Shown one piece after another: positions 60,158 through 64,000 of a stretch of DNA of 64,000 nucleotides. Each line of letters starts with the position of its first letter. Positions within the stretch are counted from its first letter, which is position 1. This DNA comes from Sinosporangium album (GTDB lineage Bacteria > Actinomycetota > Actinomycetes > Streptosporangiales > Streptosporangiaceae). The notes under the pieces were generated by a model that was given only the letters and a program-made list of their open reading frames with translations, searched no databases and was not told the DNA's origin. The DNA lies in assembly GCF_900100605.1 (NCBI RefSeq), contig NZ_FNCN01000014.1, forward strand, positions 62,001 through 126,000, read 5' to 3'. The translations under genes and the position numbers were made by a program.

Positions 60158-60206
60158 GTCCACGTGGACCATGTGAGTATGACTACATTACCCTCGTGAG
60201 TATGAC
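60158..60206. promoter_or_regulatory. Operator region of the toxin-antitoxin pair
   Basis: The perfect palindrome GTCCACGTGGAC (60158-60169) is followed by GTGAGTATGAC at 60173-60183, which recurs at 60196-60206 spanning the antitoxin GTG start. The arrangement fits autoregulation by a ribbon-helix-helix antitoxin. Confidence 0.6.
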
Positions 60207-60435
60207 CAAGAAGATCACGATCAGCCTGCCCGACGATCTGGCGGAGGAGGCCCAGCGGTCGGGTAACGCTTCTGGCTATATCGCACATGCCCTGCGCGAA
60301 CAGCGGAGGATCAGAAACGGCATGGCGGCCCTCGACCGCCTGTTCGGGGCCGGCTGGCAGGAGCAGGTCAGCGACTCCGACCGGCGGCGCGCCGAGAGCC
60401 TGTTCGACGAAGCACACCGGCAGGAGGCGGGGTGA
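60196..60435 (+). CDS. Antitoxin, ribbon-helix-helix type
   Basis: 79 residues from a GTG at 60196 (ATG 60202 is an alternative). KKITISLPDDLAEEAQRSG is the ribbon-helix-helix start; SGYIAHALREQRRI continues the fold and the acidic C-terminal tail (SDSDRRRAESLFDEAHRQEAG) would bind the toxin. Its stop overlaps the toxin start (GTGA). It probably represses its own operon through the direct repeats upstream. Confidence 0.8.
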   Translation: MSMTKKITISLPDDLAEEAQRSGNASGYIAHALREQRRIRNGMAALDRLFGAGWQEQVSDSDRRRAESLFDEAHRQEAG

Positions 60436-60875
60436 GGGCCGATGGGGGAGACGACGGGCTGACCGGCCACATCCTGGACCTCGCGGCCGTCTGGCATTTA
60501 CTCGACGGCAAAAGCCAATACGGTCGCGAGATCGTGCGGCAGTCTGTCATGCGCAACACCACGCTGCTGCTGCCCGCCCTCGCCGCCGAGCACCTGGCCG
60601 CCATGCGGCCCGAGCAGGCCGAAGGACTGCTCGCGGTGCCGGTGGTCACCATAGGAGCCCTGACCGAGGCCGACGCCGTCGGCGCGGGCCGGGTCGGGGC
60701 GCAGATGCTGGAGAACCTTCGCAGAGTTCCCCGCGCGGTCGACGCCGAGCTTCCGGCCGTGCTCGCCGGGGCTCATGCCGTACTCCTGTCGGAGGCCCGG
60801 GGCGGATGGCGGGTCATCACCGCGGCACCGTCCCTCTACGACGGGCTCGGCGTGCGCCTGGAGATCCTTCCCTAG
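60432..60875 (+). CDS. Toxin, PIN-domain-like (VapC type)
   Basis: 147 residues, GTG start after AGGAGG. HILDLAAVWHLLDG gives a first acidic residue, LAAEHLAAM a Glu, PRAVDAELPAVLAGAHAV a third and RVITAAPSLYDGL the end strand: the VapC order, though the last part lacks the usual acidic pair. With the antitoxin it forms a type II system, in which PIN toxins cleave RNA. The divergence of the terminal motif leaves activity uncertain. Confidence 0.6.
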   Translation: MRADGGDDGLTGHILDLAAVWHLLDGKSQYGREIVRQSVMRNTTLLLPALAAEHLAAMRPEQAEGLLAVPVVTIGALTEADAVGAGRVGAQMLENLRRVPRAVDAELPAVLAGAHAVLLSEARGGWRVITAAPSLYDGLGVRLEILP

Positions 60876-61328
60876 CGCCGGCGGCGGCTCGGCGGACGTG
60901 CGCCGTCCGACGGCGGGGTCTCGCTGATTCGCGGCAGTCCACGGGGATCGTTCCGTTGAACGGTTGTACTGGGCCATGCGCCGGCAATGCGATGTCCAGA
61001 ATCCGATAGAGGGCGCTTTTCTAGTCGGGTGTTTTTCGCCTCTCGGTCGAGGCTGCGTTTCCATCGGGTGATGTTTAGAACGCGGTAAAGGTGTTTTCCC
61101 GCTGGGAGGCGTGCCCCGGGCCGTATCTCCGCCTTAAAGAACAGTCAAGATCGGATACGATCTGGGATTTGTTCCGCAAGGAGCGCTCCAGAATCTCTTG
61201 ATTTTATTTCTTGCCATTTTACAGCGGTCCACATATTGCAATATTCACACCGTCGGTCCACGATTCTCCAGCGATTTGTAAGATCAATCACTTCGTCCCG
61301 GGCTACCGCCTGGCGTGAAGGAGATCGT
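60876..61328. other. Intergenic region before the subtilase-like gene
   Basis: 453 bases. The right 200 (61135-61328) are strikingly A/T-rich for this genome and hold the inverted repeat AGATCG-GATA-CGATCT (61148-61163) and the perfect palindrome ATATTGCAATAT (61233-61244). These mark a regulated promoter. No gene is seen. Confidence 0.55.
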
Positions 61329-64000
61329 GTGTCCAAACCCCCCACGCGATGGCGGGCGGCCTTGACCGGGACCGTCGCCGCCCTCGCTCTCTTGGTGCCC
61401 GCGGGTGTGGCGCAGGCGGCACCCGGCAATGACAAGATCGACAAGACCGTGCTGGGCAAGGGCGAGAAGTCGTTCCTGGTACGGCTGAAGGCGCAGGCCG
61501 ATCTCACGGCGGCGCTCAAGGCCACGAGCAAGGCCGACAAGTCCGCGGAGGTGTTCAAGGCCAAGGCCGCGTCGGCGGACGCGTCCCAGGCGGACCTCCG
61601 CCGACTGCTCACCGACCGCAAGGCGCGGTTCACTCCGTTCTGGGTGGTCAACGTGGTCAGGGTGACGGGTGACGCCGCACTGGCCACGGAGATCGCCAAG
61701 TTGCCGGAGGTGGAGCGCGTCGAGGCCGACCCGGTCGTCACCATGCCCGAGCCCGCGCGCGCAGCCGAGCCCGCCAAGGCGCACGCCAAGGTCGACGCGG
61801 TGGAGTGGAACATCGACCGGGTCGAGGCCCCGAAGGTCTGGAACGAGTACGGCGCCCGCGGCGAGGGCGTCGTCGTCGGAAGCATCAGCACGGGCGTGGA
61901 GCTCGACCATCCCGCGCTCGCCGCGCAGTACCGCGGCAGGAAGATCGACGGGACCGTCGATCACAACTACCACTGGTATGACGCGACGCGGACGTGTGCC
62001 GGGGGCACCCCGTGCGACGTGGACGGCGCGGGGACCGGCAACCTGGGCGTTGTGCTCGGGGCGGCGGGCACCGACACCATCGGCGTGGCTCCGAAGGCGA
62101 CCTGGATGGCCGCCAAGGCGTGCGGGGTCGGATGGCATTGCTACGCCGGAGACCTGATCGCCGCAGGCCAGTGGATGCTCGCGCCCACCGACCTGTCCGG
62201 CCGCAACCCGCGCCCGGACCTGGCCCCAGACGTCATCGTCAACACCTGGGCCATGCGCAACGACAGCGACAGCCCCGGGGCGGGCTACCACCGCATCTAC
62301 AAGGAGATCGTCGACGCGTGGACCGCCGCGGGTATCTTCCCGGCGCTCGACAACGGGTACAGCTATTCGACGACCTGCGGAGCCTCTTACCCTCGGCCCG
62401 GCGGCAACGTCAACGCCTACAGCGCCGGCGCGTTCGACGTCGACAACAAGATCTACTTCCAGTCGGCGCTCGGGCCCGGTGAGAACGGCGAGGTCAAGCC
62501 CAACATCGCCGCGCCGGGCGTCGCCGTACGCACGGCGGCGAAGGGCGGCGGCTACGGAGTGGCGACCGCCACGCATCTCCCGGCCGCCCACGTGGCGGGC
62601 GCGGTGGCGCTGCTGTGGTCCGCGGTGCCGAGCCTGCACCGCGATCTTCCCGGCACCCGGGCGACGCTGGACGGTGGCGCGGTCGACGTCGAGGACACCA
62701 CGTGCGGCGGCAGCGCCGCGAAGAACAACGTATGGGGTGAGGGACGCCTCTCCGCCTATGCCTCTGTCCGCGGTGCGTCCCAAAGGGGCGTCGGCGGGCT
62801 GCGCGGCAAGGTCGCCGCTCAGAGCGGGACTCCGCTCGGCGACGCCGTTGTCACCGTCGCCGCTCCGCGTCCCCGCACGGCCGTGACCAAGGCCGACGGC
62901 ACCTACGAGTTCCCCCGCCTGGCCGCCGGCGCCCACCAGGTCACGGTGAAGAAGCTGGGGTACGGCGAGGCCACCGCCTCCGTCACCGTGGCGGAGGGCA
63001 CGCCGACCCTGCACGACGTACGGCTTGCCGCCGTGCCTGTGCGCACCGTGTCGGGCAAGATCACCGCGGACGGGGAGCCGCAGCAGGGCGCGAACGTCAC
63101 CGTGGTGGGAACGCCGGAGAGCGTCGCGACCGACGCCTCAGGCGCCTACCGCATCGCGGTGCCCGACGGTGACCACCGGCTTCGGGCCACCGTGACGAGC
63201 GGCTGTGCCGGCGCGGCCACCGTGCCGGTCGCGGTGAACGGGGACCTCGTCAAGGACATCGCTCTGCCGCGCCGTGAGGACGCCTTCGGCTACACCTGCT
63301 CTATCGGCAGCGAACCCTTCGTCGGGGGTACGAACCCGGTGAACGACACGATGGGGGCCTACCCGGTCTCTCTGCCGTTCACCTTCCCGTTCTACGACGA
63401 CGCCTACTCCTCACTGCGGGTGGGCCGGCAGGGGTACATCGTCTTCGAGCCTTACGGCGACATGATGGAAAACCTTCGTGTTCCCACGTATCTAGGGCGT
63501 CAAGGAGCGATCTATCCCTACTGGGATGACCTTCTGAAGAACCCGGAGTCCGGCATCTACACCGCCACACTGGGAACGGCGCCCAACCGCACCTTCGTCC
63601 TGGAATGGCGTGACTACTCGGTGCGGGCGGACCCGAACTCCCGCCTCTCCTTCTCGGCTCTCCTTGGTGAGAACGGCTCGATCGAATTCCGCTACCGGGG
63701 TGTCACCAACGCCCACACCGCCGGAGGCAGCGCCACCATCGGCTTCGAAGACGACAAGCGGGGCATCGGCGGAGGTTTCTCCTATTCCTTCAACGAGCCG
63801 GTGCTCGTCGACGGACAGAGTCTGACGTTCGCCCCATCCAGGCACGGAGTGCTGACCGGCACCGTCACCAACGCCAACGACGGCCAGCCGGTGGCCGACG
63901 CGACGGTCAAACTCGGCGACCACGTGCTCGTCGCCACGGACGCCAACGGCGGGTTCATCAGGCACGCGCCGGCCGGAGAGCACACGGCCTCGGTCGTGAA
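61329..64000 (+). CDS. Secreted subtilase-fold protein, catalytic triad apparently replaced (3' partial)
   Basis: 890 codons are visible and the gene runs off the window. GTG start with GAAGGAG upstream. A signal peptide ends near GVAQA, followed by an inhibitor-I9-like propeptide (about 35-150), then a subtilase (S8) fold: VVVGSISTGVELDHPAL where D-T/S-G should be, IGVAPKATWMAAKAC after a region that should have HGTH but reads DGAGTGNLGV, and VATATHLPAAHVAGAVALLW where GTSMAAPHVAG is expected. So Asp, His and Ser are all changed. Downstream are carboxypeptidase-regulatory-like beta-sandwich repeats (GLRGKVAAQSGTPLGDAVV, VSGKITADGEPQQGANVTV, LTGTVTNANDGQPVADATV). Probably a binding protein, not a protease. 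Confidence 0.88.
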   Translation, partial: MSKPPTRWRAALTGTVAALALLVPAGVAQAAPGNDKIDKTVLGKGEKSFLVRLKAQADLTAALKATSKADKSAEVFKAKAASADASQADLRRLLTDRKARFTPFWVVNVVRVTGDAALATEIAKLPEVERVEADPVVTMPEPARAAEPAKAHAKVDAVEWNIDRVEAPKVWNEYGARGEGVVVGSISTGVELDHPALAAQYRGRKIDGTVDHNYHWYDATRTCAGGTPCDVDGAGTGNLGVVLGAAGTDTIGVAPKATWMAAKACGVGWHCYAGDLIAAGQWMLAPTDLSGRNPRPDLAPDVIVNTWAMRNDSDSPGAGYHRIYKEIVDAWTAAGIFPALDNGYSYSTTCGASYPRPGGNVNAYSAGAFDVDNKIYFQSALGPGENGEVKPNIAAPGVAVRTAAKGGGYGVATATHLPAAHVAGAVALLWSAVPSLHRDLPGTRATLDGGAVDVEDTTCGGSAAKNNVWGEGRLSAYASVRGASQRGVGGLRGKVAAQSGTPLGDAVVTVAAPRPRTAVTKADGTYEFPRLAAGAHQVTVKKLGYGEATASVTVAEGTPTLHDVRLAAVPVRTVSGKITADGEPQQGANVTVVGTPESVATDASGAYRIAVPDGDHRLRATVTSGCAGAATVPVAVNGDLVKDIALPRREDAFGYTCSIGSEPFVGGTNPVNDTMGAYPVSLPFTFPFYDDAYSSLRVGRQGYIVFEPYGDMMENLRVPTYLGRQGAIYPYWDDLLKNPESGIYTATLGTAPNRTFVLEWRDYSVRADPNSRLSFSALLGENGSIEFRYRGVTNAHTAGGSATIGFEDDKRGIGGGFSYSFNEPVLVDGQSLTFAPSRHGVLTGTVTNANDGQPVADATVKLGDHVLVATDANGGFIRHAPAGEHTASVV

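Follow-up and report, generated by a model that had tools for sequence, protein, structure and literature searches.

The only bacterial subtilisin-like pseudoproteases that we recognised in the literature, judged by titles and the openings of abstracts, are the Csp proteins of clostridia. CspA and CspC of Clostridioides difficile are S8 proteins that have a subtilisin fold and have lost triad residues, like the protein described here, and their genome likewise encodes an active paralogue, CspB; CspC leaves its own propeptide unprocessed (PMC6636752). A second paper describes a heterodimer of the pseudoproteases CspC and CspA (PMC12880746). Csp proteins carry a jelly-roll insertion and have a role in spores. 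Bacterial pseudo-subtilases with a known role seem to be few, and among titles and abstract openings we found no publication on the subtilase family to which the present gene belongs.

The gene comes from Sinosporangium album, a soil actinomycete that is not known as a pathogen. The window is the whole stretch of DNA that we analysed, 64,000 nucleotides long, and the gene lies at its end. It starts with a GTG at 61329 on the forward strand, with AAGGAG ahead of it (61318-61323), and runs on for about 871 nt past base 64000; the complete gene in the assembly encodes 1181 amino acids (locus L009, 4875). The features of the window part are as follows.

61214..61291, + strand: conserved family leader (promoter- or operator-like), containing CGGTCCAC twice, at 61225 and 61254 (29 nt apart)
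61329..64000, running on past the window, + strand: pseudo-subtilase gene, first of a three-gene set (GTG start with AAGGAG; omega of its clade about 0.2)
61329..61418, + strand: signal peptide, residues 1-30 (by inspection: basic start, hydrophobic core, AQA/AP)
61446..61778, + strand: propeptide, limits approximate, predicted to be folded onto the catalytic domain (structure model; unprocessed pro-subtilisins match from model residue 13-15)
61806..62768, + strand: S8 domain without catalytic residues (Pfam, alignment, structure model)
61887..61889, + strand: catalytic Asp replaced by Ser, residue 187 (alignment with complete-triad members)
62028..62030, + strand: catalytic His replaced by Ala, residue 234 (alignment with complete-triad members)
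62358..62360, + strand: oxyanion Asn replaced by Tyr, residue 344 (alignment)
62574..62576, + strand: catalytic Ser replaced by His, residue 416 (alignment with complete-triad members)
62799..63026, + strand: CarboxypepD_reg beta-sandwich 1 (Pfam)
63048..63248, + strand: CarboxypepD_reg beta-sandwich 2, end approximate (Pfam)
63249..63863, + strand: all-beta middle domain with no Pfam match, limits approximate (Pfam scan; the homologous part of a sister protein was modelled)
63864..64000, + strand: third CarboxypepD_reg domain, beginning only (Pfam on the full gene, locus L009)

The original prediction, made from the window alone, was a subtilase that keeps its fold and has Asp, His and Ser of the triad replaced in three quoted motifs. 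All three motifs are present, and alignment with complete-triad members of the family agrees with the three replacements. It adds a fourth that was absent from the first list, Tyr for Asn344 of the oxyanion hole, so that Ser, Ala, Tyr and His stand at the places where an active S8 protease requires the triad and the oxyanion Asn. The Pfam model S8 (PF00082) nevertheless matches the window part with 58.7 bits, above its curated cut-off of 21.8. The structure model (pLDDT 92.4, pTM 0.93) has the propeptide in place and finds its best PDB match in unprocessed pro-subtilisin E (3whi; Z 45.0, rmsd 2.2 over 348 residues). Model residues 15-450 superpose on pro-subtilisins, and no alternative site with an intact Asp, His and Ser was found there. 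The pro-subtilisin fold is predicted to be intact and, as far as sequence can tell, the fold has been kept while catalysis has been lost.

The beta-sandwich domains that had been noted after the S8 domain are also there: CarboxypepD_reg domains reach 105.6 bits in the window part. Beyond the end of the window, the full gene in locus L009 encodes an Ig/BACON-like domain and then a malectin domain (PF11721, 72.0 bits, cut-off 23). We modelled the C-terminal half on the sister protein L115. The fold search with this part gave low overall TM-scores (at most 0.21 of the query), and the middle domain has therefore been left without a name.

How close is this protein to the Csp proteins? The NCBIfam model CspC_non_triad gives 18.5 bits against a cut-off of 675, and CspBA 24.1 against 1250. 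The S8 domain, with 321 aa, is in the length class of the active relatives, and no insertion of about 130 residues, the size of the CspC jelly-roll, is seen. Csp proteins do not occur among the 50 fold matches listed, an absence that carries no weight in itself; at sequence level CspB does match weakly (E 3.5e-6). The window family differs from Csp in its beta-sandwich and malectin domains at the C-terminus, in a signal peptide identified by inspection, in its many copies within a genome and in its conserved leader. CspA and CspC are the closest functional precedent, and the window protein is no member of their family.

Relatives of the window protein occur in Nonomuraea, Planotetraspora, Streptomyces and others: these are secreted S8 proteases that likewise combine CarboxypepD_reg and malectin domains, and S8 identity outside the genus is at most 57%. 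One of them that we scanned (L088) has the domain order of the window gene. We take bacillopeptidase F-like proteins of Bacillus to be more distant relatives. Matches at E <= 1e-40 occur in at least 85 of the 297 genomes of the taxonomic family, both Sinosporangium genomes included. With at most seven candidates scored per genome, there are usually one to four matches among those listed, and six or seven in three genomes of the genus g74, whose fetched copies have intact catalytic residues except for one partial piece. Several Streptomyces genomes (L127, L126, L123, L130, L136) carry two or three tandem copies, all of them catalytically complete.

In Sinosporangium the picture is different. 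Members with an S8 domain number 13 in the window genome, where contigs C56, C50, C6 and C44 each carry a tandem group of three and one gene stands alone. In the sister genome, Sinosporangium siamense NBRC 109515, they number 20, counting S8 domains of at least 280 aa, and fragments come in addition. For the census we counted distinct S8 domains of at least 280 aa, identical or contained sequences once, and dropped shorter pieces (e.g. L103, L170 and the pieces on C13). A triad residue is absent in 18 of the 33 members (8 own, 10 sister), with one to three triad residues lost; we call these copies dead. Asp, His, Asn and Ser are complete in 14, and the remaining one has the triad but Asp in place of the oxyanion Asn. 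Outside the genus, in a sample formed by the fetched part of the listed matches, 182 of 183 S8 domains keep all four residues, unlike the window gene, and a single one is dead. The subtilase itself is thus ordinary, and its frequent loss of catalysis is a feature of Sinosporangium. The only dead copy found outside the genus in this sample belongs to Streptomyces albipurpureus (L145, 9329-13054). It has lost all four residues (GGMG) and its S8 domain has no Pfam S8 match at E 0.05; as in the window gene, CarboxypepD_reg, BACON-like and malectin domains are kept.

We asked whether the loss in the window gene could be a recent mutation, which the original prediction had named as a way in which it might fail. 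In the full-length tree (39 rows), the gene falls inside a clade of eight members, four per species, which are all dead (support 100/100). The tree of S8 domains alone (89 rows, bootstrap not settled) contains the same clade with 98/98, although the position of the window gene inside it differs between the two trees. Intact homologues are indeed the rule outside the genus, but a loss common to eight members in two species is not a recent event, and we reject this explanation. A second, mostly dead group holds the second and third gene of the window set and the sister gene C32e; these three group with 97/94. Dead and active states require at least five changes on the full-length tree, forced by its starred branches, which would correspond to at least five independent losses provided that loss is irreversible.

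The residues at the four catalytic places vary among the members of the dead clade: SAYH, AEFG, TQFP, GFPS, SSLS, GYLW, GNLD and GNSD. If the altered site (Ser187, Ala234 and His416 in the window protein) carried out another reaction, such variation would be hard to reconcile with it, and we give new chemistry next to no chance.

A more obvious alternative is that the dead copies are decaying leftovers of duplication without a function. Decay does occur in the family, since one sister copy (locus L085, C13:198000-206000) is broken into pieces, with the leader still in front of it. The S8 domains of dead copies are also somewhat less constrained: in the codon model, omega is 0.197 in the dead clade and 0.170 in a second dead set of four, compared to 0.132 in nine active copies. 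However, the dead copies tested (12 of the 18) are under purifying selection with omega of about 0.2, and in the dead clade the model is better by 261 lnL units than one with omega and kappa fixed at 1. Pairwise S8 dN/dS values (0.21-0.58 for five dead cross-species pairs, 0.24-0.44 for six active pairs) overlap and are all below 1, if above the values of the codon model. No stop codon interrupts the long reading frames of any of the 18 dead copies, while four of them, simulated roughly under neutrality with assumed base frequencies and half the pairwise synonymous distance per lineage, gave means of 4, 11, 7 and 11 stops per lineage; the lowest run was free of stops in two of the four. With omega and open frames speaking against pseudogenes, and the leader kept, we consider functionless relicts very improbable.

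Selection acts on every domain that we tested. In the six dead-clade members with the full set of domains, omega is lowest for malectin (0.127) and amounts to 0.181 for S8; active copies give values of about 0.125 for either domain. Two short members of the clade, the single genes on own contig C53 and sister contig C14 (L086 and L082), end early and have no malectin domain.

The catalytic cleft, taken as 38 codons around the catalytic residues, behaves in another way. In the dead clade its tree length is 9.9 compared to 5.6 for the rest of the domain; in active copies the relation is reversed (3.6 vs 6.0). In five pooled cross-species pairs of dead copies, identity is 106/190 in the cleft and 1054/1394 in the rest (p ~4e-9), whereas four pooled active pairs show no such difference (119/153 vs 809/1081, p 0.42). 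Two dead and three active pairs, either within a species or repeating a member, were left out of the pooling, and among the five dead pairs C50B alone is not significant (p 0.21). The cleft is under relaxed constraint in the dead copies. Omega, based on only 38 codons in the cleft, is higher there than in the remainder of the domain in all three sets: 0.425 vs 0.169 in the dead clade, 0.233 vs 0.151 in the second dead set and 0.224 vs 0.123 in active copies.

These numbers bear on two alternatives. The first is that dead subtilases are decoys which soak up the protease inhibitors of competitors and so shield their active paralogues. A kept fold, secretion (by inspection) and a leader in common with active paralogues would all suit a decoy. 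Yet in the five dead pairs, though not in the active ones, the cleft, which is where standard inhibitors bind, has changed more than the remainder of the domain, and it evolves fastest of the parts tested in the dead S8 domains. In addition, several copies carry a bulky residue (His, Trp or Phe) at the position aligned with Ser. Clade A also contains an insertion, several residues long, behind the conserved Trp of the S1 region, at the point where the model is least confident; by analogy with subtilisin we take this site to lie beside the S1 pocket. Since the cleft is not conserved, the inhibitor or decoy role that had been proposed for the protein is disfavoured, and we regard it as improbable.

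The second alternative turns the variation into a function: the old cleft might have become a diversified binding site, by which the family recognises many partners such as competitors, phage or kin. The long cleft tree in dead copies, its reversal in active ones and the number of copies (13 and 20 in the two species) are what this would lead one to expect. On the other hand, the cleft omega of 0.425 is below 1, and relaxed constraint suffices to explain it without positive selection, which is not shown; moreover, the cleft omega is elevated in active copies too. We find such variable recognition doubtful.

An A/T-rich region with palindromes upstream of the gene had been taken as a sign of regulation. 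The region is real and corresponds to a conserved 76-nt leader of the family, with the consensus CGGTCCAC, three bases, TTGAAA, about 17 bases, TCCACSATTCT and then GATCATT; in the window, TTGAAA reads TTGCAA and CGGTCCAC is present twice. The palindromes were not borne out as conserved RNA structure, as no conserved base pairs were found in the leader. From 13 lead genes we built a sequence-only model of 76 nt (R1) and used it to score 150 of 595 and 150 of 771 first-pass candidates in the two genomes. There are 5 own and 12 sister matches at E < 1e-3, each before a family gene, and the next match has E > 0.4. Thirteen of these 17 are training sequences; the four new ones are own C44 and sister C45, C13 and C12:174585. 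A further sister gene, f2 (C12:179760), seems by eye to be preceded by part of the leader; R1 does not match there, and we placed f2 among the genes without a leader. In 12 of 15 unbroken S8 genes, 511-556 bases separate the end of the leader from the S8 domain, and the spacing is longer in own C6 (739), sister C45 (679) and C12:174585 (914). With matches before family genes only in the two genomes, the leader probably is a regulated promoter region, as had been suggested.

A wider regulon was considered and rejected. A short pattern with up to two mismatches occurs about as often as its reversed control (34 vs 26 and 53 vs 52), and its eight exact matches all precede dead family genes, from which the pattern had been designed; the 76-nt model gave family genes only at E < 1e-3 among the candidates scored. 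Among 25 relatives, chosen because they bear the family, 14 have exactly one leader match each at E <= 0.1 (weak in G274, E 0.09) and 11 gave none. In 12 of the 14 the leader lies 504-547 bases ahead of an S8 domain with a complete match, and in the other two (G165 and G084) it precedes partial or broken copies.

Unbroken S8 genes behind the leader, as assigned by us, are dead in 12 of 15 cases, compared to 6 of the 18 other members (p = 0.013, kinship ignored). This enrichment at the lead position mostly reflects one clade. The leader of the own C44 group stands before a gene with no S8 domain at all: the frame (L012 12899-14992, minus strand, 697 aa) keeps CarboxypepD_reg, BACON_2 and malectin.

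Dead and active copies also occur in the same operons. The order dead, dead, active is common to own C50 and sister C12, and the order dead, active, active to own C6 and sister C32. In the window set, genes 2 and 3 follow after 75 and 74 nt, and both lack triad residues. For the genes on either side of the window operon, no counterpart was found in the stored flanking sequence of the ten loci that were compared; with no conserved neighbourhood, orthology of the operon rests on the tree, that is, on the grouping of C32e with window genes 2 and 3 mentioned above.

Operons and a leader common to dead and active copies are what we would expect if the dead proteins were sensors that bind a signal and control a catalytic relative, in the manner of CspA and CspC. 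There is a real precedent in the CspC/CspA heterodimer (PMC12880746) next to an active CspB (PMC6636752). Against it, we see no conserved pocket, the cleft residues differ in nearly every dead copy, and the scores of the CspC and CspBA models are far below their cut-offs. Furthermore, none of the three genes in the window operon is active, and an active partner would have to be encoded at another locus. We therefore judge a Csp-like regulator unlikely, although less so than the alternatives discussed so far.

We favour the view, to which we would give a probability of about one half, that the window protein is a maintained secreted pseudoprotease which binds or scaffolds, probably on glycans and together with co-regulated active paralogues. 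Purifying selection on all domains tested and the leader common to dead and active members support it. Fold, switch and C-terminal domains are kept and the cleft has been let go, which fits a structural or binding role better than a decoy; a single shared ligand site should likewise be conserved, and the cleft is not. The common leader, and often a common operon, makes a partner role of the active paralogues plausible. The binding role originally proposed as probable thus stands, within what can be read from sequence.

As a mechanism, we suggest the following. Having no nucleophile, the window protein presumably cannot clip its own propeptide; unless active paralogues do so for it, it would keep a pro-like form. 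Outside the cell its role may be that of a binding or scaffold subunit without catalysis, which its malectin and beta-sandwich domains would attach to a surface of glycan or cell wall. The subtilase domain would then offer a protein surface to active paralogues with the same leader or to an external ligand. That the malectin domain binds sugar is suggested by its Pfam name. The genes on C53 and C14 are without malectin, one in each species, so glycan binding cannot be the whole function. More tentatively, the leader-run operons, in which the pseudo-subtilase is usually first, could serve a non-proteolytic display, with a freely varying cleft on a glycan-anchored scaffold as the surface for recognition or assembly; some operons would then be wholly without catalysis.

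In this two-species family, repeated catalytic losses can be placed on a tree next to matched active copies, and the same family offers a domain-deleted copy, a broken copy and one common leader. The purpose of a dead protease thereby becomes directly testable in Sinosporangium.

Two short overlapping genes (60196-60875, 77 and 147 aa) lie directly upstream in the window; by eye they resemble an antitoxin and a PIN-type toxin, and neither has a Pfam match at E 0.05. Downstream of the three-gene set there is a gene for what looks, by eye, like a small heat-shock protein (L009 12414-12833).
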